A stretch of DNA of 20,562 bases from a virus. Made by a program: the position numbers and the translations under genes. The notes below the pieces were generated by a model. The model worked only from the letters and a program-made list of their open reading frames with translations, was not told the DNA's origin and did no database searches. Location: positions 1-20,562 of IMG/VR virus record IMGVR_UViG_3300042449_001680. One strand, 5' to 3'. Position 1 is the stretch's first letter. The number at the start of each line of letters is the position of its first letter. Shown here in pieces: positions 5,868-20,562 of the stretch.

Positions 5868-7394
5868 ATGCAACAATTACAAGAATCAGTAGAAAAACTT
5901 GAAAAGAAGATTCTACACGAACAAAAAAAAGAAGAGGTTAAAGTTCTAATCAAAGAAATGAAAAAAATCGGAATTGAGAAACTTCCGTACGCCTATTCAG
6001 CCATCAGTAGATTTATTGACCCCGAAACAATGGATGTTCATTACAACAAACATTACAAGGGTTACGTTAACAAATTAAATCAATTACTGAAAAAAAGAAA
6101 AGGTGACCAAGACCTTGAAAAAATAATCAGAAACATTTCTCGTTACCCAAAAGGTATTAGAGATAACGCAGGTGGTGCCTTTAACCACGCTTTGTTTTGG
6201 AACATGTTAACACCAAAACAAATGAAGATTACCAAAGAGTTGGAAGATATTATCAAGAAAGACTTTGGTACCTATGAAAAATTCAAACAACAATTTGAAA
6301 CTGTAGCTAAAGAAAGATTCGGTTCAGGTTGGGTGTGGTTGGTGTTAACCAACAAGGGAACCCTTAAGATTATGTCCACTCCAAACCAAGACAACCCACT
6401 GATGAACATCATTGAAGGTGGGGGTTATCCATTATTGGGGTTGGATGTTTGGGAACACGCCTATTATCTCAAATACAAAAATAAGAGAGATGAGTATGTA
6501 AAAAACTTTTGGTCTGTGATTAATTGGGATTTTGTCACTAACTTGTACAAAATGAAAACTGAAACATCATTATTAGAATCCGTAGAAATGGGGGAACTTT
6601 TGAAAGAAGCAAAATCCGAGGGATGTTCAAGAGACGATATTGAAACTTATCGTGTTTTATTCAACGTAAACAAAAACGCAAGAAACATTTACAAAAACAC
6701 AATCATCAAAGTCCATCAAAAAGTTTTTGCTGACAAGTATCACACCAAAAGAGAAGATGGTGAAATACCCGGTGTTTATAATTTGGAAAAACCAGGTCGT
6801 TCAGTTATTAACTATATGAACACAAACTACTCGGTTTTCTGTATCGTGGTTAATGATTTGAATAAAGTCATTCAAGGTCAGATGGGTCAAGAACCAATAT
6901 CTTTTGAATTGAAAACTCCTGCCGAACAGATTACTGAAATGAAGAGAATGTGTAACTACATTGAAAAGTTCCAAGATAGAATTTTCTCTAAAACATCGTA
7001 CACATTTAAGAATATTATGGCAACTCTTAAGGAAAAAGATTCCATCGGAATCAAGAGAGAAGAGATGGCAAAAAAAGTTTTGGAAACTAAATTACCTGAA
7101 ACTACTGTTGAAATTGCTGCAGGTGCGGGTAAAGAGAAAGACGCTTATAAAAAAATTGATTTAGAAATCGTCCACAAAGGAAGAAAAATTACCGCACAGG
7201 TAAAAGGTTTTGATGAACTTATTCCCGAGGATGAAAAGTTAGTTGTCACAAAAACAGGAGAAATTGACAAATATAAAGTTGATTGGATGGTTTTTATTCG
7301 TGGTAAAAATGTTTTAGTCTTTAGAAACCGACCTGAAATAGTTCTTGGTCAGTATGTATTTGACAAGAACGACTTATTATACCACATTAAGTAA
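5868..7394 (+). CDS. Mn-type superoxide dismutase fused to a helical region and a PD-(D/E)XK-like domain
   Basis: 508 aa. Residues about 37-228 are a complete Fe/Mn superoxide dismutase: LPYAYSAI (39-46), VHYNKHYKGYV (57-67), NAGGAFNHALFW (100-111), RFGSGWVWLV (150-159), STPNQD (170-175) and LDVWEHAYYLKYKN (192-205). All four metal ligands are present (H58, H107, D193, H197), as is the gateway Tyr66. Gly at 102-103 and Gln174 match the MnSOD pattern rather than FeSOD. It should convert superoxide to peroxide and oxygen. A charged N-terminal coiled-coil stretch (1-36) precedes it. Residues 230-410 are a helical region I do not recognise. Residues about 411-508 contain KKIDLEIV (428-435) then ITAQVKGF (441-448), a D-x12-QxK arrangement like PD-(D/E)XK nucleases. 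The nuclease reading is inference; the SOD is firm. SOD proteins normally have about 200 residues. Confidence 0.92.
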   Translation: MQQLQESVEKLEKKILHEQKKEEVKVLIKEMKKIGIEKLPYAYSAISRFIDPETMDVHYNKHYKGYVNKLNQLLKKRKGDQDLEKIIRNISRYPKGIRDNAGGAFNHALFWNMLTPKQMKITKELEDIIKKDFGTYEKFKQQFETVAKERFGSGWVWLVLTNKGTLKIMSTPNQDNPLMNIIEGGGYPLLGLDVWEHAYYLKYKNKRDEYVKNFWSVINWDFVTNLYKMKTETSLLESVEMGELLKEAKSEGCSRDDIETYRVLFNVNKNARNIYKNTIIKVHQKVFADKYHTKREDGEIPGVYNLEKPGRSVINYMNTNYSVFCIVVNDLNKVIQGQMGQEPISFELKTPAEQITEMKRMCNYIEKFQDRIFSKTSYTFKNIMATLKEKDSIGIKREEMAKKVLETKLPETTVEIAAGAGKEKDAYKKIDLEIVHKGRKITAQVKGFDELIPEDEKLVVTKTGEIDKYKVDWMVFIRGKNVLVFRNRPEIVLGQYVFDKNDLLYHIK

Positions 7395-12031: not shown

Positions 12032-12409
12032 TTAACAACAAGCAGTTTCAGAAATAAAACTGTCTTCTACGTTGACATACAACTCTTCTCTAATTGGGAC
12101 AATTAAGTTACCTTGTTCATTCTTAATTAAGAATTGACCTTGGTATCTACCCGGTGTATTAGTGTCTCGTGCAGTGAATCTATAGTAGATATAATATTCT
12201 GTGGTTGCACCATCAGCCAAAATCAAACTTACGATTTGGCAAGGTGCGGAAACAATCTTAGGAATACCTGTTGAAACATTTATCATAGTAAAATAGATAG
12301 TCGCAGTTTCCAAGTCATTCATTAACTCAAGATAACCACCACGACCATCTTTTACAACTTGCATTTTCAACAAGGGTAAAGTGGCATTTTTTCTAATAAA
12401 GAATTCCAT
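12032..12409 (-). CDS. Unrecognised 125-aa beta-rich protein, possibly baseplate or fibre-associated
   Basis: Opens MEFFIRKNATLPLLKMQVV and continues with strands such as ATIYFTMINVSTGIPKIV, YYIYYRFTARDTNTPGRYQG, and IVPIREELYVNVEDSF. The pattern (a strand about a charged 'KDGR', 'D.......F.M.N', then 'D....G.Y...F.I......L..P.....V.V') resembles N-terminal domains of phage baseplate upper proteins (BppU type) in overall layout, but I would not assign it. The last residues are ACC (two Cys). It follows the glycosylation operon by 18 bases but has its own TATTTAT box, so it may be expressed separately as a late gene. No membrane segment is seen. Confidence 0.7.
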   Translation of the reverse strand: MEFFIRKNATLPLLKMQVVKDGRGGYLELMNDLETATIYFTMINVSTGIPKIVSAPCQIVSLILADGATTEYYIYYRFTARDTNTPGRYQGQFLIKNEQGNLIVPIREELYVNVEDSFISETACC

Positions 12410-12427: not shown

Positions 12428-14101
12428 TTAGGACTCTTTTCTCAATTTACCATCGTAGAAATCAAATCTATCGTGTTCTGTTGGTGTCATCAACAACATC
12501 GCAGGTTTAATATTACCCTTAATTGTTTCTTGGAAAATGTAACTCATCCACGTTTGTTCAAATGGGTGGGCCCACTTTTCAGTCAAGAACATTTTTCTAT
12601 TACCATGTTTTGTAACCACTTGAGGCCAATTACAATAATAAATTTCACCATCAATAAATGAAACTCCTTGATGTGTTCTAATATGATTAAACTTGCTTCT
12701 TGGTGCGTTTGGGTCAATACCTTGTACGGGTAGTTTTGATTTACTCGGCCAATGTTGTTCTCTAAATGATTGTGGTACGTTATACCAAGACCACTGAACA
12801 CCATTGTCACCATAGAACTCAGAATAATTCATTTTCAGAAAGTCATACTGATATTTTTTTGTAATTGCTAATGTCTTGTGATATAAATCGTTTGCATATC
12901 TGTTGAAACCATTTCTACAAACTTCACCCTTTTTTGGATAAAAGAACATATCATCCTCAAAGAAGAAATAGAAATCAAATTCGTTTTCTTCTGAGTGTTC
13001 CGCAATCCATTGTCTACCACCACAGATACCTAAATTATCTTTTTTGATGTGTTCAAAACCATGTTGTTCACATAATTCTTTGTATCTATCAGTAGTTGTT
13101 AAATCAGATGAATTATCTAATAAAAACTTTTTAGGTTTACTCAAGAAGTTAGAATCATATTGATTCATTGATTCAATCAAAGTTTCAAATTGTTTTGGAC
13201 TATTAAATGTTATAACGTATAAAGCGGCATTATTCACATCTAAATCATCACTTGGAGATAGTAAATTTTCTTTGTTTTTTCTAACTAAACTATCGTTCTT
13301 TAAATCTTCAAAAAATTTACCAAATAATCCATTAGATTCTATTTCAAAATAATCTACCATGTCAGCATGTTTGTAGACCATAATTGAAAAGATACTTTCT
13401 TCGGTACCCATCAAATCTTGAGAAAGGGTTGATTGTAAAATGTTATAATAAATTGAATTAATATCACCAATGGTATTTTTAGGTCCACCAAAGAATCCAC
13501 CTCTACCAACTAATTCAACCTTAGTACCCGCAATATTATTTATTTCAGAAAACTTAAACCCATGAATTTCGTTATTTGCCTCGTATGGAAAACAAACAAA
13601 TGAAAATTTATTAATGTATTTTGGTAATTTATCTAAAACCTTATCGTGGGTGAAATATCCTTGATGTACTGTATTGGTTAATCCCGCATCAATCCAAAAC
13701 ATGTGTTCTGAATCAAATGGGTCAAACACTTTCGCATCATGTAATAAAAACACCTTTGACATGACCAAAGGATTATACATCTCAAGTCTTGCTTGAGTTG
13801 ATTCACTTAACCAACCTGATTGTGAGTACCATTTTTCATCGGTTCTGATTTTTTGTATCTTGTCAAAAAACTCATTTTTAAACCAATCGGTAGACCTTGA
13901 GATAAACAATGTATTATCTTTTGAACGTCTTTGAAAAACAAACTCCTCCAAAGAACTATCCCCAAAAATAATCATATTATTATCAACTTTTAGAAGTTGG
14001 TCAAACTTCTCTAAATAATGTTCAAAAGAACGAGACCAACCTTCACCAAGTTCATCTCTTTTAATATTCCAAAGTCCAGTGACAAGTGTTAATTTAGACA
14101 T
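12428..14101 (-). CDS. Two-domain glycosyltransferase: HtrL/YibB-like + GT2-like
   Basis: 557 aa. Residues 1-280 resemble the HtrL/YibB (WlaTC) family: LTLVTGLWNIKRDE (4-17), MYNPLVMSKVFLLHDA (108-123), FWIDAGLTNTVH (135-146). Residues about 290-557 form a second unit that looks like a GT-A glycosyltransferase: AALYVITFNSPKQFETLI (292-309), FLLDNSSDL (326-334), NLGICGGRQWIAEHS (356-370), then FFFEDDMFFYP (379-389), where EDD would bind metal and nucleotide sugar. The enzyme would add two different sugars, or one domain may position the acceptor. Last gene of the seven-gene operon; ATG 14101 overlaps the sulfotransferase end by eight bases. The donor sugar cannot be read from sequence. Confidence 0.8.
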   Translation of the reverse strand: MSKLTLVTGLWNIKRDELGEGWSRSFEHYLEKFDQLLKVDNNMIIFGDSSLEEFVFQRRSKDNTLFISRSTDWFKNEFFDKIQKIRTDEKWYSQSGWLSESTQARLEMYNPLVMSKVFLLHDAKVFDPFDSEHMFWIDAGLTNTVHQGYFTHDKVLDKLPKYINKFSFVCFPYEANNEIHGFKFSEINNIAGTKVELVGRGGFFGGPKNTIGDINSIYYNILQSTLSQDLMGTEESIFSIMVYKHADMVDYFEIESNGLFGKFFEDLKNDSLVRKNKENLLSPSDDLDVNNAALYVITFNSPKQFETLIESMNQYDSNFLSKPKKFLLDNSSDLTTTDRYKELCEQHGFEHIKKDNLGICGGRQWIAEHSEENEFDFYFFFEDDMFFYPKKGEVCRNGFNRYANDLYHKTLAITKKYQYDFLKMNYSEFYGDNGVQWSWYNVPQSFREQHWPSKSKLPVQGIDPNAPRSKFNHIRTHQGVSFIDGEIYYCNWPQVVTKHGNRKMFLTEKWAHPFEQTWMSYIFQETIKGNIKPAMLLMTPTEHDRFDFYDGKLRKES

Positions 14102-14789
14102 AATATTCTTTTACTTTTTCTTTTAATTTTAATTTGAATTCTTCATCAATGATTTTATCAATTATTTCTATTTCTTCAATAGTTAAATCACGAGGTTTTT
14201 CATTTAAATAATATTCACCCATTTCTTGAGTGTATTCTCTTGAAAGAGGAATACTTCCCGGATTCATATTTTCCCAATTATCTGGAGACTTCCAATTAAA
14301 TCTTTCACCGATAATTGATAGTATTTTATTTCTTTTTTCTTCATTTAATAAGTCTTCATAAGAAATTAAAAAAAGATTTTTTTTGAATTTATTAGGGAAA
14401 TTAATCATCCAATTCTCATGAAATTGCTTATAAACGTTAATCAGTTTTTCAAAACTAACCATACCATCACAATACATAACATCATCTTTTAACTTGATAT
14501 ACCGACTTTCATCAATATAATGAGGTAGATATTTTACAGATAACATTATGTTATGACCATCACCACATTTTCTTTTGAGAATGGATTCAACCCAAGTATA
14601 AACATTTTTATAAATTACAAATACGGGATAATCCTCCAACTCATCAACAACAATAGAATGTTTCCAAAGTGGTTGATAATTGTTATTGGTATTTTTCTCG
14701 TGAATTTTACCAAAATTTCTATTCAGTAAATTCATTAGATAATTTGTCCCACTTCTATGAATCCCAAAAACGTATATTGGTTTTATCAT
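14094..14789 (-). CDS. Sulfotransferase-like protein (PAPS-dependent family)
   Basis: 231 aa. The N-terminal IYVFGIHRSGTNYLMNLL (5-22) is a typical 5'-phosphosulfate-binding loop (GxxRSGTxxL) of P-loop sulfotransferases. A second region, YKNVYTWVESILKRK (60-74), matches the 3'-phosphate-binding segment ('RdP..w..S'), and LISYEDLLNE (141-150) the family's 'YEDL' motif. It would transfer sulfate from PAPS to a hydroxyl, here most plausibly on a sugar of the glycan made by neighbouring enzymes. It overlaps its upstream neighbour by four bases and its downstream neighbour by eight. No membrane anchor is seen, so it should be cytosolic. No PAPS-synthesis gene is in the window; the host would supply it. 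Confidence 0.78.
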   Translation of the reverse strand: MIKPIYVFGIHRSGTNYLMNLLNRNFGKIHEKNTNNNYQPLWKHSIVVDELEDYPVFVIYKNVYTWVESILKRKCGDGHNIMLSVKYLPHYIDESRYIKLKDDVMYCDGMVSFEKLINVYKQFHENWMINFPNKFKKNLFLISYEDLLNEEKRNKILSIIGERFNWKSPDNWENMNPGSIPLSREYTQEMGEYYLNEKPRDLTIEEIEIIDKIIDEEFKLKLKEKVKEYYV

Positions 14790-15472
14790 AATTTGTTAAT
14801 ATACAATTTTTGTCTACCATCAAACAATAGGATGTAACCTAATGAAAGTAAGTGTGGTGACAAATAAGCATCTTTACCCGTATCTTCAATATCAAAATCC
14901 GTATCGTCAATTAAAATAAGGTGAGTGTCTGCCAATTTAGGTTTAGCAACCTCAAAACATTCTAAATGTTTTTCTCTATACAAGTGAGTACCAGTATCCC
15001 AACCGTCTAAGAACAACACATCAATAGTTCCTTGAAACTCTTGTAAAAATTCAATACCGTCTTTTGGTATGTTAAGATGTAGATTATCAGGGAAAGGTCT
15101 TCTAATGTTTTCAAATGACCACATAGCTTGTGTTTTACAATTTGGGTCAATGTCAACTGAATGTACATCAAAACCTTCTAATGTCCAAATAATACCTCCG
15201 TGTCCGTCAGCACAACATGGTGGTGACAAAAATGGGTCTAATGAATTCTCATAATAATCTAAACATTGATTTGCTAGTGCCAATCTTGTTGCACCAATTT
15301 CAACTACGGTTTTCATACCTAATAATCTAGCAACTTGAGCAGCCGCCTTTAGATATGGTCCTGGTTTACTTCTTCTAATGTCATGGTCTTCACCGGTCAA
15401 TGACAGGGTCGTCCAATACTTTTTTGGGATTTTATTAAATTCGTTTGTTATTTCTAAAATTTGGTCTTTCAT
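14786..15472 (-). CDS. Class I SAM-dependent methyltransferase
   Basis: 228 aa. Rossmann-type methyltransferase layout: TVVEIGATRLALANQCL (55-71) is the SAM-binding loop, though with A61-T-R in place of the usual GxG. HSVDIDPN (104-111) holds the acid that binds the ribose. IDVLFLDGWDTG (150-161) and LILIDDTDF (185-193) match the O-methyltransferase/Methyltransferase_24 pattern ('iDllfiDg.H.....D'). A CCADGHGG stretch (86-93) between the first two motifs is unusual and could bind metal. Substrate is probably a sugar hydroxyl, judging from the operon. It overlaps both neighbours by four bases (ATGA). Confidence 0.75.
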   Translation of the reverse strand: MKDQILEITNEFNKIPKKYWTTLSLTGEDHDIRRSKPGPYLKAAAQVARLLGMKTVVEIGATRLALANQCLDYYENSLDPFLSPPCCADGHGGIIWTLEGFDVHSVDIDPNCKTQAMWSFENIRRPFPDNLHLNIPKDGIEFLQEFQGTIDVLFLDGWDTGTHLYREKHLECFEVAKPKLADTHLILIDDTDFDIEDTGKDAYLSPHLLSLGYILLFDGRQKLYINKL

Positions 15473-16143
15473 GATAATGGTTTTAAATATGAGTCTCCAA
15501 ACAACTCATCAATGTTTATAGACTCATATCCACAATTGTTTGTGAAGTCATCTAATATTTTTTTTGCATCTTCTTTTGACATCTGATTTTGGTAGTTGTT
15601 TTCAAAAAGAATAAATGGTTTTTTATTTAACGATTGAATCAATGGCATCATTGATTTCAAGATTTGATAATCTTGTGTTTCGGTGTCAATTTTAATAAAG
15701 TCAAATGATTCTAAGTCATTAACATATTGGTCAAAAAAATCATACCCACTAATCATTTGAACTTCATATCCTTCACTTTTGTGAATCTGAGATACACCCA
15801 TGTTAATATGGTCAGGTGTTGAATGTTCTATTGAGTGTGTTTGGAAAAAAGTTTTACCTGACCTATCTGAAATTGCGTAATCATAAATTATACAATTAGG
15901 TACGGACTGAAATTTTTCTTTGATGTATTCATTGAGTTGTGGTGCAGGTTCAACCATAACAACCTTTTCAATCTCATATTCTTTGGATAATACATCATAA
16001 AATTTACCTACATTTGCACCAATATCTATGTAACTTAATTTGGTGACATTTTTGTCACCAAAAAAATCACGTAGGTAATTTATTTCAGTACCTATATGTT
16101 TTTCTATAAGTTCGTCATCCCATTTTTTAATTAAATCTTTCAT
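15469..16143 (-). CDS. FkbM-family methyltransferase
   Basis: 224 aa. SYIDIGANVGKFYDVL (37-52) is the SAM-binding loop (DIGANxG), VVMVEPAPQLNEYI (61-74) the second motif, YAISDRSGKTFF (89-100) and FDFIKIDTETQDYQILKSM (about 147-165) the conserved FkbM (Methyltransf_21) blocks. FkbM-type enzymes O-methylate sugars or polyketides and are common in surface-glycan loci. It fits an operon that builds a decorated glycan. Both ends overlap neighbouring genes by four bases, indicating translational coupling. A perfect 10-base inverted repeat lies early in the gene (16039-16062). Confidence 0.88.
   Translation of the reverse strand: MKDLIKKWDDELIEKHIGTEINYLRDFFGDKNVTKLSYIDIGANVGKFYDVLSKEYEIEKVVMVEPAPQLNEYIKEKFQSVPNCIIYDYAISDRSGKTFFQTHSIEHSTPDHINMGVSQIHKSEGYEVQMISGYDFFDQYVNDLESFDFIKIDTETQDYQILKSMMPLIQSLNKKPFILFENNYQNQMSKEDAKKILDDFTNNCGYESINIDELFGDSYLKPLS
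16039..16062. repeat. Perfect 10-bp inverted repeat inside FkbM gene
   Basis: Plus strand TTTGGTGACA, loop TTTT, TGTCACCAAA. It lies at about codons 28-35 of the FkbM gene (minus). It is flanked by an A/T run but not by the U-run expected of an intrinsic terminator on the transcribed (minus) strand. The function is unknown. Confidence 0.8.
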
Positions 16144-16949
16144 TCAAATACGTAGTCTATTTTTTTAAATTCATCCGGTATAAAAAACTTTGGTTGAACC
16201 TTTAGTGTGTCAGGATGGTTACATCCTGTGTGCATTAATCCGTTTGTATGTCTTAACACGGGAAATGTTGTTACTCCTTGAAATTCATACCATCCTTGAT
16301 AAGAACTAACTTTTTCAATTTCAGGTTCATAAGGAACAACAAACATTTTAATTTTTTTATGTTTAAAATAGTATGACATTAACACGTCATCTGATAGAGT
16401 TTTACCTAAGAAATCTGTGAAGAAATCTTGCTCAAAATACCTAACAAAATAAGAACAAGATTTGTAATGTTGTAATTCTTTAACTCTTGAAATTTCACTA
16501 ACAGTAAGAATCCAAGAATCTCTTAAGTCACCCCATTTTGTCGGTACCAAACTTCTACCATCATACAATACAACAGCATCGGTTAGTTGTGTTTGATACT
16601 TAACGTGTTCATTAATCATATCAGGATGATAAACTAAATCATCATCAGTAACAATTAATAGAGTGTTTGGTGTTTCTCTTTGAATAGTTGGAACAACTTT
16701 AGTTGGTGGTCCCATATCTTCCATTCTAAAAACTTTAAGATGTGGGTATCGTAATTGATAATCCTCAATCCATTGAGGAATTACATACTCTTCACCTGTA
16801 ACATTATATTTGTGAGGGAGGTTTAGATGTACCTCATATGAGTCATAGTTTTGTTCACACAAAGATTTTAAACAAAGTTTAAATCCATCTTCAGGTTCAA
16901 AACTTAATCGTTGTGGGACAGTTGTTAATGTGATTACAATTTTATCCAT
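16140..16949 (-). CDS. GT2-like glycosyltransferase
   Basis: 269 aa from ATG 16949, starting MDKIVITLTTVPQRLS. A Rossmann-like N-terminus is followed by FKLCLKSLCEQNYDSYEVHL, KVFRMEDMGPPTKVVP, and LLIVTDDDLVYHPDM, where TDDD (101-104) is the metal/nucleotide-sugar DxD motif of GT-A folds. It resembles the group of small glycosyltransferases that read 'ITLTT.P.R' at the start. Donor and acceptor are unknown; it probably extends the glycan begun by the GT60-like enzyme. An in-frame ATG at 16961 would give four more residues (MLVQ); I prefer 16949 because it matches the family start and gives an 8-base overlap with the upstream gene. Its stop overlaps the FkbM start by four bases. Confidence 0.8.
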   Translation of the reverse strand: MDKIVITLTTVPQRLSFEPEDGFKLCLKSLCEQNYDSYEVHLNLPHKYNVTGEEYVIPQWIEDYQLRYPHLKVFRMEDMGPPTKVVPTIQRETPNTLLIVTDDDLVYHPDMINEHVKYQTQLTDAVVLYDGRSLVPTKWGDLRDSWILTVSEISRVKELQHYKSCSYFVRYFEQDFFTDFLGKTLSDDVLMSYYFKHKKIKMFVVPYEPEIEKVSSYQGWYEFQGVTTFPVLRHTNGLMHTGCNHPDTLKVQPKFFIPDEFKKIDYVFE

Positions 16950-17313
16950 TTGAACTAGCATGATTCATTTTAATGTCTTTATATCCTTCACCAAAAACTT
17001 CAACAACATCGTTTTTGTATCCAACACGGATTTTATTAAATTCTCTGATTTTAATTGCTCTGCGACCAACTTCTTCAAGACCCAATTCACCTTCTCTACC
17101 TTTTCTAATATCAGACTCTAAATCCCAAATCATTCCGTTAATCTCAATCAATTTATCAATTTTTTCATTAATAAACTCTTCGTGAGTTTTTTTGTAGGAT
17201 TCAATTTCTTGTGTTAAATCTTCAATCTCTTGTTGATTCTCAGCACTTGCTCTTTCTTTCTTTAATATTGCGATAGAATATCTATCTAATATTTCACCTA
17301 TGGGCATTTTCAT
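16942..17313 (-). CDS. Small coiled-coil protein (resembles DUF6165-type)
   Basis: 123 aa. Starts MKMPIGEILDRYSIAILKKE, then a long charged helical stretch (about 20-60) and IEINGMIWDLESDIRKG, EEVGRRAIKIREFNKIRVGYKNDV. The 'GE..D..SI..lK.ER' start, 'N..iWD.E..IR', and 'a..I...N..R...K..I' run resembles small helical proteins often found among glycosyltransferase genes (DUF6165-like); the similarity is by eye. It starts three bases after the GT60-like stop and overlaps the GT2 gene. It has no enzyme motif, so a partner or scaffold for a transferase is possible, but no function is assigned. Confidence 0.7.
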   Translation of the reverse strand: MKMPIGEILDRYSIAILKKERASAENQQEIEDLTQEIESYKKTHEEFINEKIDKLIEINGMIWDLESDIRKGREGELGLEEVGRRAIKIREFNKIRVGYKNDVVEVFGEGYKDIKMNHASSNG

Positions 17314-17316
17314 ATT

Positions 17317-18564
17317 TTACAAATTACCTGTTAATCTTTCGCACCAACCTTTGCTCGTTGAGTAAGGCCATACAACCCAATAAGTTGGTTTTATTTCCGT
17401 TTGGAATTCTCTCCATACTTTACCATATCCGTCAGGGTCATTCATAATTCTTTGAATTTCTGACTTATCAGCATCTTTTCTGTTGAGGGTTTCATCATTA
17501 GGTCCGTGGAAAGCAACTACCCAATATTCGTAGTCTTTTTCAGGAACAGATGCATAATTTACATCAATACAATGTTTGTAGATAGATGCAAAGTTTTTCT
17601 TCCATTCTTCTTCCGACTCAAAGTTATATGGGTTAGGCGGATAGTTCTTATCCAAAGTATATTGTTGTACTGCTCTTTTTTCAAACAAAAGACCTGAATA
17701 TTTTTCATAGTCACGTAAACTACGAACAGAACCAAATCCATAAGGTCCGTCATGACCTTTTTGTTCTTCACCATCCATACCAAAAAGTTGACGATTTGTT
17801 AAGTGAGAATGATTGTTTTTTCTAACCCATTCTTTATCATCATCCCATTGTTTGGTTCTACCCTTACGAGTGTATTCGTGCCAAATTAAAACTTTGTGTG
17901 GGTGGAATAAATCATAACCCCAAGTGTATGCTCTCGCTGCGATTGAAATTTCTTCACCGTGGAAATAGTATTCAGGATTATGTTGAACTTCGGTTGAGAA
18001 TTGTCCCAAAGTAAAACAATAGTGTGCCGAGTAAAAACGTGCGGTTACAGGTTCTTTTAATTGTTGCCAACCTGGAATTGTTTCAGGTAAGAAGAACACA
18101 GCACCCTCAGGAATAAATCTATCAAACGCCATTCTCCATGGCTCTTGCATTCTACCTGCCGGGTCATTGTCGGGGTCAAATGACGAAACATAACCTGTAA
18201 GTAATGGTTTTTTGTAACCTTTCTTTTGAAGTTGTTTAATCATCTTAATCATCTCATCGTCCCAATTGGGAGCGAATCTCATGTGAGAATCAATCTGAAG
18301 TGTATATTCTTCACCATTATAAAGTTGTTGTGTGAGATTACGAGCCCAACACACACCTTGAGATTCTTCATGAGGAATGTTTAAGATTCTAAATCTTGAA
18401 TCATTTTCATACTCAGTCAATTCATCAAACTTGTCGTCAGGATGAAATTGTCTAGCAATAGATAATCTTAAATTTTTGGGTCTTTTAGCATTCTCCAACA
18501 TATTTTTAATTGTTGGAATAAGTTGGGGGTCACGATAAGCCGCAATCTGAACAAATATTTTCAT
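17317..18564 (-). CDS. GT60-like GlcNAc-transferase (Skp1/mucin type)
   Basis: 415 aa. Features of the GlcNAc (PF11397, GT60) family: IFVQIAAYRDPQLIPTIKNML (3-23) at the N-terminus, CWARNLTQQLYNGEEYTLQI (72-91), IDSHMRFAPNWD (91-102) with the DxH metal motif of this family, and EEISIAARAYTWGYDLF (204-220) followed by HPHKVLIWHEYTR (221-233). Members put GlcNAc on hydroxyproline of Skp1 in protists or on Thr of trypanosome mucins. It is the first gene of the operon and lies directly downstream of the Thr/Pro-repeat virion proteins. The last 100 residues include WRMAFD-like and WCERL segments that vary in the family. Acting on the adjacent repeat proteins is inference. Confidence 0.82.
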   Translation of the reverse strand: MKIFVQIAAYRDPQLIPTIKNMLENAKRPKNLRLSIARQFHPDDKFDELTEYENDSRFRILNIPHEESQGVCWARNLTQQLYNGEEYTLQIDSHMRFAPNWDDEMIKMIKQLQKKGYKKPLLTGYVSSFDPDNDPAGRMQEPWRMAFDRFIPEGAVFFLPETIPGWQQLKEPVTARFYSAHYCFTLGQFSTEVQHNPEYYFHGEEISIAARAYTWGYDLFHPHKVLIWHEYTRKGRTKQWDDDKEWVRKNNHSHLTNRQLFGMDGEEQKGHDGPYGFGSVRSLRDYEKYSGLLFEKRAVQQYTLDKNYPPNPYNFESEEEWKKNFASIYKHCIDVNYASVPEKDYEYWVVAFHGPNDETLNRKDADKSEIQRIMNDPDGYGKVWREFQTEIKPTYWVVWPYSTSKGWCERLTGNL

Positions 18565-18646
18565 GTAAACTAATTTTTACAGAAAAAATATATCCAATAA
18601 TTAATTTATAAAGAGTTTTGTAATAACTTTTAAATATTTTTAATTT
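18565..18646. other. AT-rich gap with possible promoter for glycosylation operon
   Basis: 82 bases. The minus strand contains TTTATAAATTAATTATTGG and GATATATTTTTTC before ATG 18564, either of which could be a promoter element, and a small GTAAA/TTTAC inverted repeat directly before the ATG. I see no GC-rich hairpin plus U-run, so no terminator for the Thr/Pro-repeat genes. TATTTAT is absent, unlike before the structural genes. Confidence 0.35.
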
Positions 18647-19804
18647 TTAACTTGTTACGGTTGGTGTAGGTGTATTGGTAGGAGTTTCAGTTGGTGTATT
18701 AGTCGGAGTTTCCGTTGGTGTTGGTGTAGGAGTAATTCCTGTATTAACAACCAAACTAACATATACAGGTAATCCGACAGTCCAATTTGTAGTTGCGGAT
18801 TGAATTAAAATTGCAACACCTGAAGGGGTATTTGAAGGAGGAACACCTACTGCCGTGCCAAACACAAAACCATCACCTGGCACACCTGGAGGTGTACCTG
18901 TATTGGCAGACCAATATTTAAATGAATTTGTATCACCAGAATAAATTGCGGTACTACCCGTTTGAGTCATCGTTATTGTTACACTTTGACCTGTAAATTG
19001 AGTGAAGTAACTTTCCCTATCTATACCGTTAGAATCAATAGTGTTAAAATATATTCCCCTACCACTTGTCGTTAAAAGATTAGGGTTAGTTGTTCCTGTT
19101 TGGATTGCTCCCTGATTCATAATTGTATTACCTGTTGTAGGGAAGTTATATGGTAATATTATTAAATTAAAAGAATAACCTGTTACAGGCTCAGGTGTCA
19201 CGCTTGGTGTTGGTGTATTGGTTGGTGTCGTAGATGGCGTTAATGGTGGTGTTCCTGTTGGCGTAACCGAAGATGTTGGTGTTATGGTATTAGTTGGCGT
19301 AATTGTTGGAGTAACAGTGTTGGTTGGTGTAACACTATTTGTAGGAGTTACCGTTGGAGTTACCGACTCTGTTGGTGTCACAGTAACTGACGGTGTCAAA
19401 GAACTTGTTGGTGTAATTGACGGTGAATTTGTCGGCGTAACAGTAACTGAAGGTGTTAGAGAATTTGTTGGTGTGGGTGTTAAGGAATTTGTAGGAGTAT
19501 TAGTTGGTGTGTTGGTTGGTGTGTTGGTTGGCGTTGTAGATTCTGTCGGAGTAACTGTTGGAGTTGCGGATACACTAATTGATGGTGTAACTGTTGGAGT
19601 TGTTGTTGGCGTATTGGTTGGTGTTGCTGATGGCTCGAATTGACCACCATAAACAACTAAGTCCCAACTCGCATTGTTGTTAGGAGGTAATTGACCTGAA
19701 GGTACATTAGTTAATGCAATATACATGATATTTTCATATACAACAAAATCACCTTGATTATAAGATGTTCCAAAATTCCATTCACCTTCAAAACTAACGT
19801 TCAT
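18647..19804 (-). CDS. Mucin-like Thr/Pro-repeat virion or fibre protein with CBM5/12-like N-terminus
   Basis: 385 aa. Residues 8-50 (EWNFGTSYNQGDFVVYENIM, then YIALTNVPS and SWDLV) look like a carbohydrate-binding CBM5/12-type domain ('W....Y..GD.V.y....y.A......P......W'). Residues 58-205 are a Thr/Pro/Ser repeat of units such as TPTNTPT. Residues 206-355 are a beta-rich domain (ITMTQTGSTAIYSG, ILIQSATTNWTVGLPVYVSLVV), and 357-385 a second TPTETPTNTPT tail. No signal peptide is seen, so it is expected to be a virion surface protein (fibre or head/tail decoration). The repeat would be a good O-glycosylation target. The start is 12 bases after the upstream gene's stop. Confidence 0.75.
   Translation of the reverse strand: MNVSFEGEWNFGTSYNQGDFVVYENIMYIALTNVPSGQLPPNNNASWDLVVYGGQFEPSATPTNTPTTTPTVTPSISVSATPTVTPTESTTPTNTPTNTPTNTPTNSLTPTPTNSLTPSVTVTPTNSPSITPTSSLTPSVTVTPTESVTPTVTPTNSVTPTNTVTPTITPTNTITPTSSVTPTGTPPLTPSTTPTNTPTPSVTPEPVTGYSFNLIILPYNFPTTGNTIMNQGAIQTGTTNPNLLTTSGRGIYFNTIDSNGIDRESYFTQFTGQSVTITMTQTGSTAIYSGDTNSFKYWSANTGTPPGVPGDGFVFGTAVGVPPSNTPSGVAILIQSATTNWTVGLPVYVSLVVNTGITPTPTPTETPTNTPTETPTNTPTPTVTS
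18650..18736 (-). repeat. C-terminal Thr/Pro tail repeat
   Basis: Encodes residues 357-385, short TPT/ETPT units. Same composition as the longer repeat in the same protein. It ends the protein. Confidence 0.85.
19190..19633 (-). repeat. Long Thr/Pro-rich coding repeat
   Basis: About 148 residues of imperfect units such as TPTNTPT, VTVTPTESVTP and TPTNSLTPS. On the plus strand the DNA repeats GTTGGTGTA-like units. Units vary in sequence, which argues against recent simple tandem slippage and for selection on Thr/Pro composition. Confidence 0.9.
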
Positions 19805-19809
19805 ATTCT

Positions 19810-19816
19810 ATAAATA
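19810..19816 (-). promoter_or_regulatory. TATTTAT box before mucin-like gene
   Basis: The minus strand reads TAATATTTATAGAATATG: the heptamer directly follows the stop of the upstream gene and sits five bases before the ATG. Confidence 0.45.
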
Positions 19817-20562
19817 TTATATTGGGTTTGGAACGTAGTCCAATGTAATAACCGTAGTCGGACAAGTTTTAGTGTAACTGTATGAGAAATTGTTTGGTGT
19901 TCCATCACTAACTCTAACAATACCAACACCATTGGCCCCACCAAACGAAGGAGTCATGTTTATTGCTGAAGTATCGTAAATACCTACACAACCTCCACCA
20001 GAAACATTTATTGCACTACCATTAAGTGTAATTGTTGAGCCATAAGGTACCGTAATCGTGTCAGAACCACTACCCGCAATACCAAGTGCATTCTTAGTAT
20101 AAACAGATGAACCATTAACCAAGATAGAGAATGTACCTCTAGCACAAGTCTGAATAGCCCAGTTAATTGTTATTTGAGTGGTACACACACTAGGTGTTGC
20201 CGTCATAGTTGGTGTTCTTGTCGGAGTTAACGTTCTTGTTGGTGAAGAAGTAGGTGCCGGTGTTGAAGTTCTAGTTGGTGTTACCGTTGGAGTTCTTGTA
20301 GGTGTTGGAGTTCTTGTAGGTGTTGGAGTTACAGATACTGCAGGTCCTTCTTGACAAATCTCACAAGTATTGTAATCAACTTTAACTGTAATTGACGTGT
20401 CTGCAGGAATTATTGATGACCTTACAACAATATAACAACCTGAAGGAATTGTCGAACCTTGAACATATACAACATCAAGTGTTGGTGCTCCTACAATTGC
20501 AAAGTTACCGAAATAACTTTCACCACCACCAGGACATTGGGAAAGTTCATAAACCAATTCAG
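19817..20562 (-). CDS. Second Thr/Pro-repeat virion protein, 5' end missing
   Basis: Open frame from the right edge (codons before TTG 20557 are also open), so the N-terminus lies outside. Visible order, counted from 20557: a beta-rich domain (about 1-70) with four Cys, including CEICQE (65-70); a Thr/Pro/Arg repeat (76-123) of PTRTPT units; and a C-terminal beta-rich domain (about 125-246) with ITINWAIQTCARGTFSIL, SGSDTITVPYGSTITLNG, NFSYSYTKTCPTTVITLDYV. The spaced Cys could form disulfides or bind metal in a surface fibre. The repeat differs from that of the next gene by frequent Arg. It looks like a paralogue of the downstream protein in layout. No known family is recognised. Confidence 0.72.
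   Translation of the reverse strand, partial: ELVYELSQCPGGGESYFGNFAIVGAPTLDVVYVQGSTIPSGCYIVVRSSIIPADTSITVKVDYNTCEICQEGPAVSVTPTPTRTPTPTRTPTVTPTRTSTPAPTSSPTRTLTPTRTPTMTATPSVCTTQITINWAIQTCARGTFSILVNGSSVYTKNALGIAGSGSDTITVPYGSTITLNGSAINVSGGGCVGIYDTSAINMTPSFGGANGVGIVRVSDGTPNNFSYSYTKTCPTTVITLDYVPNPI
20189..20332 (-). repeat. Thr/Pro/Arg coding repeat
   Basis: 48 residues of PTRTPT, TVTPTRTS and similar units between two beta-rich domains. Same kind of linker as at 19190-19633. Confidence 0.88.

Follow-up and report, generated by a model that had tools for sequence, protein, structure and literature searches.

A probable mucin-type protein O-glycosylation locus of a phage, with a GT60-type glycosyltransferase and Thr/Pro-repeat proteins

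INTRODUCTION

The closest described counterparts of the system reported here are the GT60 polypeptide alpha-N-acetylglucosamine (GlcNAc)-transferases of eukaryotes, namely Skp1 Gnt1 of Dictyostelium and Toxoplasma and the mucin GlcNAc-transferase of Trypanosoma cruzi, an organism whose mucins are Thr/Pro-rich. Mucin initiation in animals and Toxoplasma is performed by GT27 polypeptide N-acetylgalactosamine (GalNAc)-transferases. A DxH motif in place of DxD is the signature of GT27 and GT60, and both have been grouped as polypeptide Ser/Thr O-glycosylation families (PMC7185993). Here we describe a locus on the minus strand at the right end of a 20.6-kb virus contig (IMG/VR record IMGVR_UViG_3300042449_001680, 20,562 nt, the whole of which is called the window below). 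It joins a GT60-type glycosyltransferase to Thr/Pro (TP)-repeat proteins and other enzyme genes, and probably encodes a mucin-type protein O-glycosylation system of a large aquatic phage.

Glycosylation of phage proteins is already known. In mycobacteriophages, according to the passages of PMC12619734 that cite Freeman et al. 2023, phage-encoded glycosyltransferases decorate virion proteins at capsid and tail-tube C-termini; the present locus differs in its GT60, its long TP-repeat proteins and its variable cassette. Moraphages, which are large aquatic phages with predicted Bacteroidota hosts, possess four core glycosyltransferase groups without a settled role (PMC12619734); the likeness of the window to them is one of type only. 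In virions of the jumbo phage XacN1, at least two glycoproteins were detected by proteomics, and the authors recognized ORF334 as a glycosyltransferase but drew no connection to TP repeats (PMC5852040). The titles and abstracts on PF11397 and on bacterial GT60 contained no functional study of a phage or bacterial member. The GT60-initiated, mucin-like modular version of phage-protein glycosylation appears to be new.

RESULTS

Organization of the locus

Nine minus-strand open reading frames (ORFs) were contiguous at the right end of the window, with no real gaps between neighbours. These, and the conserved gene that follows them, are given in order of transcription.

19817..20562, minus strand: TP-repeat protein 2, C-terminal part, cut by the contig end; the 5' end lies beyond the window
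18647..19804, minus strand: TP-repeat protein 1, 385 aa, with TP repeats at aa 53-214 and 345-385; proposed acceptor
17317..18564, minus strand: GT60-type glycosyltransferase, 415 aa (PF11397, E 2.8e-65; phrog_24687, E 1.9e-167)
16942..17313, minus strand: small coiled-coil-like cassette protein, 123 aa; weak family matches only, no family assigned
16140..16961, minus strand: GT2-like glycosyltransferase, 273 aa, cassette (Glycos_transf_2, E 1.8e-4, just under cut-off)
15469..16143, minus strand: FkbM-family methyltransferase, 224 aa, cassette (PF05050, E 2.2e-11; TIGR01444, E 5e-18)
14786..15472, minus strand: class I methyltransferase-like protein, 228 aa, cassette (Methyltransf_24, E 4.4e-5, just under cut-off)
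14094..14789, minus strand: sulfotransferase-like protein, 231 aa, cassette (Sulfotransfer_3, E 7e-4, under cut-off, N-terminal P-loop)
12428..14101, minus strand: HtrL_YibB plus GT-A two-domain glycosyltransferase (HtrL-GT), 557 aa (PF09612, E 2.3e-18); the invariant far end of the cassette
12032..12409, minus strand: conserved 125-aa protein, between HtrL-GT and DNA polymerase B (polB)

The seven enzyme-side ORFs overlap or are separated by a few bases, and the GT60 gene starts 82 nt after the repeat genes, which are transcribed first. An earlier reading of the window, made without database searches (the sequence-only reading), had described these seven ORFs as an operon, and their coordinates, strand and near-zero spacing were borne out by the ORF calls. 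As for the families that it named, the matches to GT60, HtrL_YibB and FkbM exceeded the Pfam cut-offs and are secure, with the three others just under theirs. It had also listed two TP-repeat genes: the repeats are real, but 19817-20562 is not a whole gene, being the 3' end of a gene for ~1383 aa.

The GT60 enzyme

The hidden Markov model search with PF11397 that the sequence-only reading had suggested for its GT60 candidate gave a strong match (221.5 bits versus a cut-off of 21), and both profile ends were covered. Residues D92-S93-H94 constitute the DxH motif. D92 and H94 were invariant in 22 diverse phage GT60s, including the two most divergent, and H229 was also invariant. The enzyme resembles the eukaryotic GT60 enzymes in matching nearly the whole PF11397 profile, in the DxH motif and in the GT-A fold; it differs from them in being a prokaryotic viral gene, in sharing an operon with its proposed acceptors and in an extra C-terminal beta domain of ~90 aa.

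The AlphaFold2 model was confident, with a mean predicted local distance difference test (pLDDT) score of 92.6. Because the search of PDB chain sequences with the GT60 profile, many GalNAc-transferases included, returned no match at E<=1, a fold search was needed. By Foldseek, nearly all of the best PDB matches were polypeptide GalNAc-transferases, in many cases in structures determined together with mucin peptides; TarS and RmlT were the exceptions among the top 40. The comparison places the enzyme in the GT-A fold related to polypeptide O-glycosyltransferases. The alignments were partial (query TM-score about 0.4-0.5, with high long-range root-mean-square deviation), and therefore kinship of fold and catalysis is supported, and identical specificity is not. 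GT27 enzymes share the DxH motif and provide the best structural match. Nevertheless, neither detectable GT27 sequence homology nor a ricin-type lectin domain, by which membership of GT27 is recognized, was found in the window enzyme (Pfam reported no lectin domain), so that the likeness appears to be one of working and not of membership. The enzyme is proposed to be the initiating polypeptide Thr/Ser O-glycosyltransferase.

The Thr/Pro-repeat proteins

TP richness was scored by a composition window with a threshold of 30 residues. In repeat protein 1, 203 of the 385 residues lay in TP-rich segments; it contains 74 Thr and 43 Pro, for which all four Thr codons and all four Pro codons are used, and its N-terminus is CBM5/12-like (CBM_5_12, E 2e-4, under cut-off). 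For repeat protein 2, 66 of the 247 residues visible in 19817-20560 were in such segments. The whole gene was found in a related locus, L003 (L and G numbers are our labels for loci and records), whose GT60 is 98% identical; it encodes 1383 aa, 977 of them TP-rich (~70%). With a strict (TP)4 regular expression, the irregular repeats found in the window clade were counted too low, and the composition window took its place. The antisense ORF 19218-19643, with Val/Gly repeats, was rejected as a gene, as it is the mirror of the TP repeats.

The 125-aa protein is fused to TP repeats in the relatives L071, L078, L157 and L158; since several versions carry the repeats, it may be another acceptor. Collagen-like GTSGSSG-repeat proteins were also seen near the locus (L003:1-1326, L047:1820-2737 and L063:1-843) and may represent another class of appendage or acceptor.

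Linkage and co-occurrence of GT60 and Thr/Pro repeats

The window-type phage relatives have a common layout of TP genes, GT60, variable genes, HtrL-GT, 125-aa protein and polB. That related phages would keep enzyme and repeat genes together was a suggestion of the sequence-only reading, and it held: of the 52 distinct window-type GT60s for which 3 kb or more of upstream sequence was available, 44 were accompanied by a TP-rich ORF no more than 3 kb away, which in 34 cases was the gene immediately upstream. TP-rich ORFs accounted for 79/330 ORFs within 3 kb of GT60, compared with 25/556 farther away and 10/1332 on control viral contigs. Four of the eight GT60s outside the count (L047, L049, L055 and L080) have a TP ORF 4.7-5.9 kb off, and short TP runs were seen on inspection in L059 and L069. 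Many of the GT60 contigs are fragments.

Co-occurrence was also examined over whole records. It was found that (TP)n coding repeats were present in 15/15 GT60-bearing phage records; three of these (L201, L213 and L235) had been found via the repeats, which leaves an unselected count of 12/12. A polB-anchored scan of close relatives found GT60 in nearly every contig with enough flank and gave no negative controls, and therefore sister-clade isolates were used as GT60-less controls. The repeats were present in 0/7 GT60-less jumbo phages (RaK2, GAP32, CBB, BF, Atu_ph07, SCTP-2 and phage G), the first six of which belong to the group placed as the sister clade of XacN1 (PMC5852040). Approached from the repeat side, GT60 occurred in 8/120 viral stretches with the TP DNA pattern and in 0/118 new stretches that matched the same pattern read backwards (Fisher p 0.007). 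Whole records gave 6/50 for repeat-bearing ones and 0/50 for controls, a contrast slightly favoured by the somewhat shorter average length of the control records; of the repeat-bearing records of at least 100 kb, 4/5 had GT60. The expectation of the sequence-only reading that repeats and enzymes do not occur independently therefore held in one direction (15/15 versus 0/7), with the converse weaker, GT60 being found in only 6/50 TP-repeat records.

Phage sequences fell in several separate places of the GT60 tree, with starred branches forcing at least five label changes, and therefore the association with TP repeats does not reflect a single ancestry. The GT60-like proteins of L282 and L213 were too divergent for placement in the tree; their counts are independent of placement.

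The jumbo phages XacN1, RAS14 and CM1 share both GT60 and full-length HtrL-GT with the window, and XacN1 and RAS14 also have variable genes between these bookends and TP repeats. They differ in that their TP genes are dispersed, and the cassette of XacN1 contains a carbamoyltransferase. XacN1 encodes GT60 (ORF334), the carbamoyltransferase, an HtrL-like protein and full-length HtrL-GT (ORF330). Thirteen of its ORFs have TP runs, including a six-gene array (ORF232-237) and ORF325 (3313 aa), which comes directly after baseplate wedge genes.

It might be argued that the virion is glycosylated mainly on another acceptor, such as capsid, sheath or Gly/Ser/Thr collagen-like repeats, and that the TP segments are plain stalks. 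GTSGSSG-repeat proteins adjoin the TP genes in L003 and other relatives; in L049 and L055 the genes before GT60 encode LamG-like and small repeat-less proteins, with the TP gene beyond HtrL-GT; and the mycobacteriophage glycans mentioned in PMC12619734 sit on capsid and tail-tube subunits. However, TP repeats are what is singled out by co-occurrence with GT60 in unrelated phages and by adjacency in bacteria (see below), and we judge another main acceptor unlikely.

The variable cassette and HtrL-GT

The genes bracketed by GT60 and HtrL-GT formed 96 clusters at 30% identity. Those with annotation were mainly methyltransferases, GT2/7/10/25/34 and PLOD-type transferases, sulfo- and carbamoyltransferases, aminotransferases and HAD proteins. 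The 133 loci, some of which overlap on the same contig between scans, contained 53 distinct gene sets, and 26/47 pairs of loci whose GT60s are 95-98% identical had no cassette family in common. By analogy, such rapid exchange is the behaviour of serotype loci. Relatives of the 123-aa small protein were present in the cassettes of L146 and L078.

A mixture of genes like this resembles lipopolysaccharide/O-antigen loci, and HtrL-type genes are mentioned in PMC4172580 and PMC10327509, which treat lipooligosaccharide outer-core loci. The cassette could accordingly be imagined to alter the lipopolysaccharide or capsule of the host during infection, for seroconversion or superinfection exclusion. 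We regard this as very unlikely: the fold and motif of GT60 indicate polypeptide acceptors, the locus is linked to repeat proteins, and no flippase, polymerase or ligase is among the 25 Pfam families that the cassettes contain most often.

HtrL-GT matched HtrL_YibB over residues 3-251 (67.2 bits versus a cut-off of 24.1) and did not reach the narrower YibB equivalog cut-off. Its AlphaFold2 prediction comprised two GT-A domains (pLDDT 91, predicted TM-score 0.58). Fold matches in the PDB were the two-domain LH3, LARGE1, COLGALT1 and K4 chondroitin polymerase, with low overall TM-scores because the domain arrangement differs. GT60 and full-length HtrL-GT matched the identical 3/50,697 phage records, one of which is XacN1. 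Relatives of the HtrL domain, with 27-34% identity over the N-terminal part only, were seen in the Synechococcus phages Bellamy, B23, DSL-LC02 and SynMITS9220M01, and these four cyanophages gave no GT60 match.

The C-terminal domain of HtrL-GT weakly matched TAGT (20.6 bits, cut-off 27.5) and the hydroxymethylcytosine glucosyltransferase phrog_842 (24 bits). Together with the adjoining polB and a thymidylate-synthase family gene in 7/9 records (in which thymidylate synthase and dCMP hydroxymethylase were not told apart), these matches would fit DNA hypermodification, in which sugars are put on modified bases of the phage genome. But a search for Tet/JBP, made without a positive control, matched 0/9 records, and the GT60-bearing records G001 and G010 had no thymidylate-synthase family gene in the sequence examined. 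Hypermodification also leaves both the TP co-occurrence and the chromosomal bacterial versions unexplained, and we consider it highly improbable.

Bacterial counterparts

The bacterial GT60s nearest to the window clade were from Saprospiraceae, with 70% identity. In Saprospiraceae L302 (8507-13089), a TP-repeat protein with a type IX secretion system (T9SS) sorting domain adjoins GT60, HtrL-GT and a sulfotransferase, on a contig that also bears UvrB and Omp85 genes. In Jiulongibacter L308 (8944-15142), a TP protein of 262 aa is accompanied by GT60, a carbamoyltransferase and HtrL-GT, and similar units of TP protein, GT60 and HtrL-GT were found in Gemmatimonas L309 (8391-13002) and Halieaceae L343 (7766-9986). 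TP-rich ORFs made up 5/142 of those adjoining bacterial GT60s versus 3/698 of those three or more genes away (p 0.005). The bacterial TP proteins have N-terminal RR motifs followed by hydrophobic stretches, which, read by eye, suggests that they are Tat (twin-arginine translocation)-like; such a signal would be in keeping with glycosylation in the cytoplasm, ahead of export.

It was observed that units of a TP-repeat protein with such an N-terminus and GT60, usually with HtrL-GT, are chromosomal in several phyla, including L359:7468-10518. One unit has a PqqD-like domain and another a T9SS tail. A separate type of locus was seen in type VI secretion system (T6SS) clusters of Enterobacterales, probably of Burkholderiaceae too, in which GT60 lies with TssF, TssG, ImpA_N, a fimbrial/MrkD-like protein and an OmpA/DotU-like protein (L372:4904-13149, L330:8890-11380; similar in L364-L381 and L319-L348). 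To our knowledge, no T6SS locus has been described in which a glycosyltransferase and a fimbrial-tip-like protein form a pair; no literature search aimed at this was made.

Other features of the window

Positions 5868-7394 encode a phage Fe/Mn superoxide dismutase (E 1e-40) with a C-terminal extension of ~280 aa. The product of 1-2151 starts with SPGVYTSE and, on our own reading, resembles the sheath protein of a contractile tail; Pfam and PHROGs gave no match to it.

DISCUSSION

That the locus serves glycosylation of the repeat proteins was the interpretation of the sequence-only reading, and it is now supported by the GT60 match, the gene linkage, the co-occurrence, the fold and the published XacN1 virion glycoproteins. 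The basis for a mucin-type O-glycosylation system consists of sequence families, predicted folds, gene linkage, co-occurrence and cassette exchange. From these we infer the reaction, the sugar, the acceptor residues, the order of steps, the incorporation into the virion and the benefit, as follows. The TP-repeat proteins, presumably virion proteins and probably tail or baseplate appendages, would be made first. The cytoplasmic GT60 would then transfer the first alpha-linked sugar from UDP-N-acetylhexosamine (GlcNAc or GalNAc) to Thr/Ser of the repeats, and the two-domain HtrL-GT would next add one or two conserved sugars. The exchangeable cassette, here with GT2, two methyltransferases, the sulfotransferase-like protein and the small protein, would extend and cap the chain. 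The virion would in this way come to bear a brush of glycans that vary as serotypes do, which might benefit the phage by receptor/ligand variation or by protecting extended stalks.

Several points weigh against this interpretation. Glycans on TP repeats, in this phage as elsewhere, are a prediction from genes and folds, and the main text on XacN1 leaves its glycoproteins unnamed (PMC5852040). The sulfotransferase, class I methyltransferase and GT2 matches of the cassette fall under curated cut-offs. Many loci are related, so that counts within one lineage are not independent, and GT60 was not detected in the majority of short viral contigs that bear TP repeats. Within single genomes, GT60 and TP repeats were only modestly closer than at random (nominal P 0.02-0.20, window clade), and in the XacN1-like clade the nearest repeats can be remote from GT60 (6 kb in G008, 93 kb in G007 and 119 kb in G006). 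As the position-only test was weak within genomes and failed for two XacN1-like records, our case rests on co-occurrence and local enrichment instead. Some bacterial GT60s lie in T6SS loci that lack TP repeats, and therefore TP is not the only possible acceptor of the family.

A wider proposition, to which we give roughly even chances, is that prokaryotes own a mucin-type O-glycosylation system of GT60, HtrL-GT and a Thr/Pro acceptor, which bacterial chromosomes have exchanged with several unrelated lineages of jumbo phages. In phages it would serve to make mucin-like appendages of the virion, with cassette exchange swapping their glycan in a serotype-like manner, and the bacterial acceptors would often be Tat-like. 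If the locus itself works as proposed, it points to a counterpart, in bacteria, of the way in which animals and trypanosomes initiate mucin glycans, and it could supply soluble bacterial enzymes for glycosylation of this type. It would also mean that some of the largest aquatic phages wear self-made mucin-like glycoproteins, with sugar structures that change by cassette exchange even between phages whose GT60s are 95-98% identical, which would provide a concrete mechanism for variation of the virion surface. The system could account for the glycoproteins of XacN1, and it may give a role to the core unexplained glycosyltransferases of large aquatic phages (PMC12619734).

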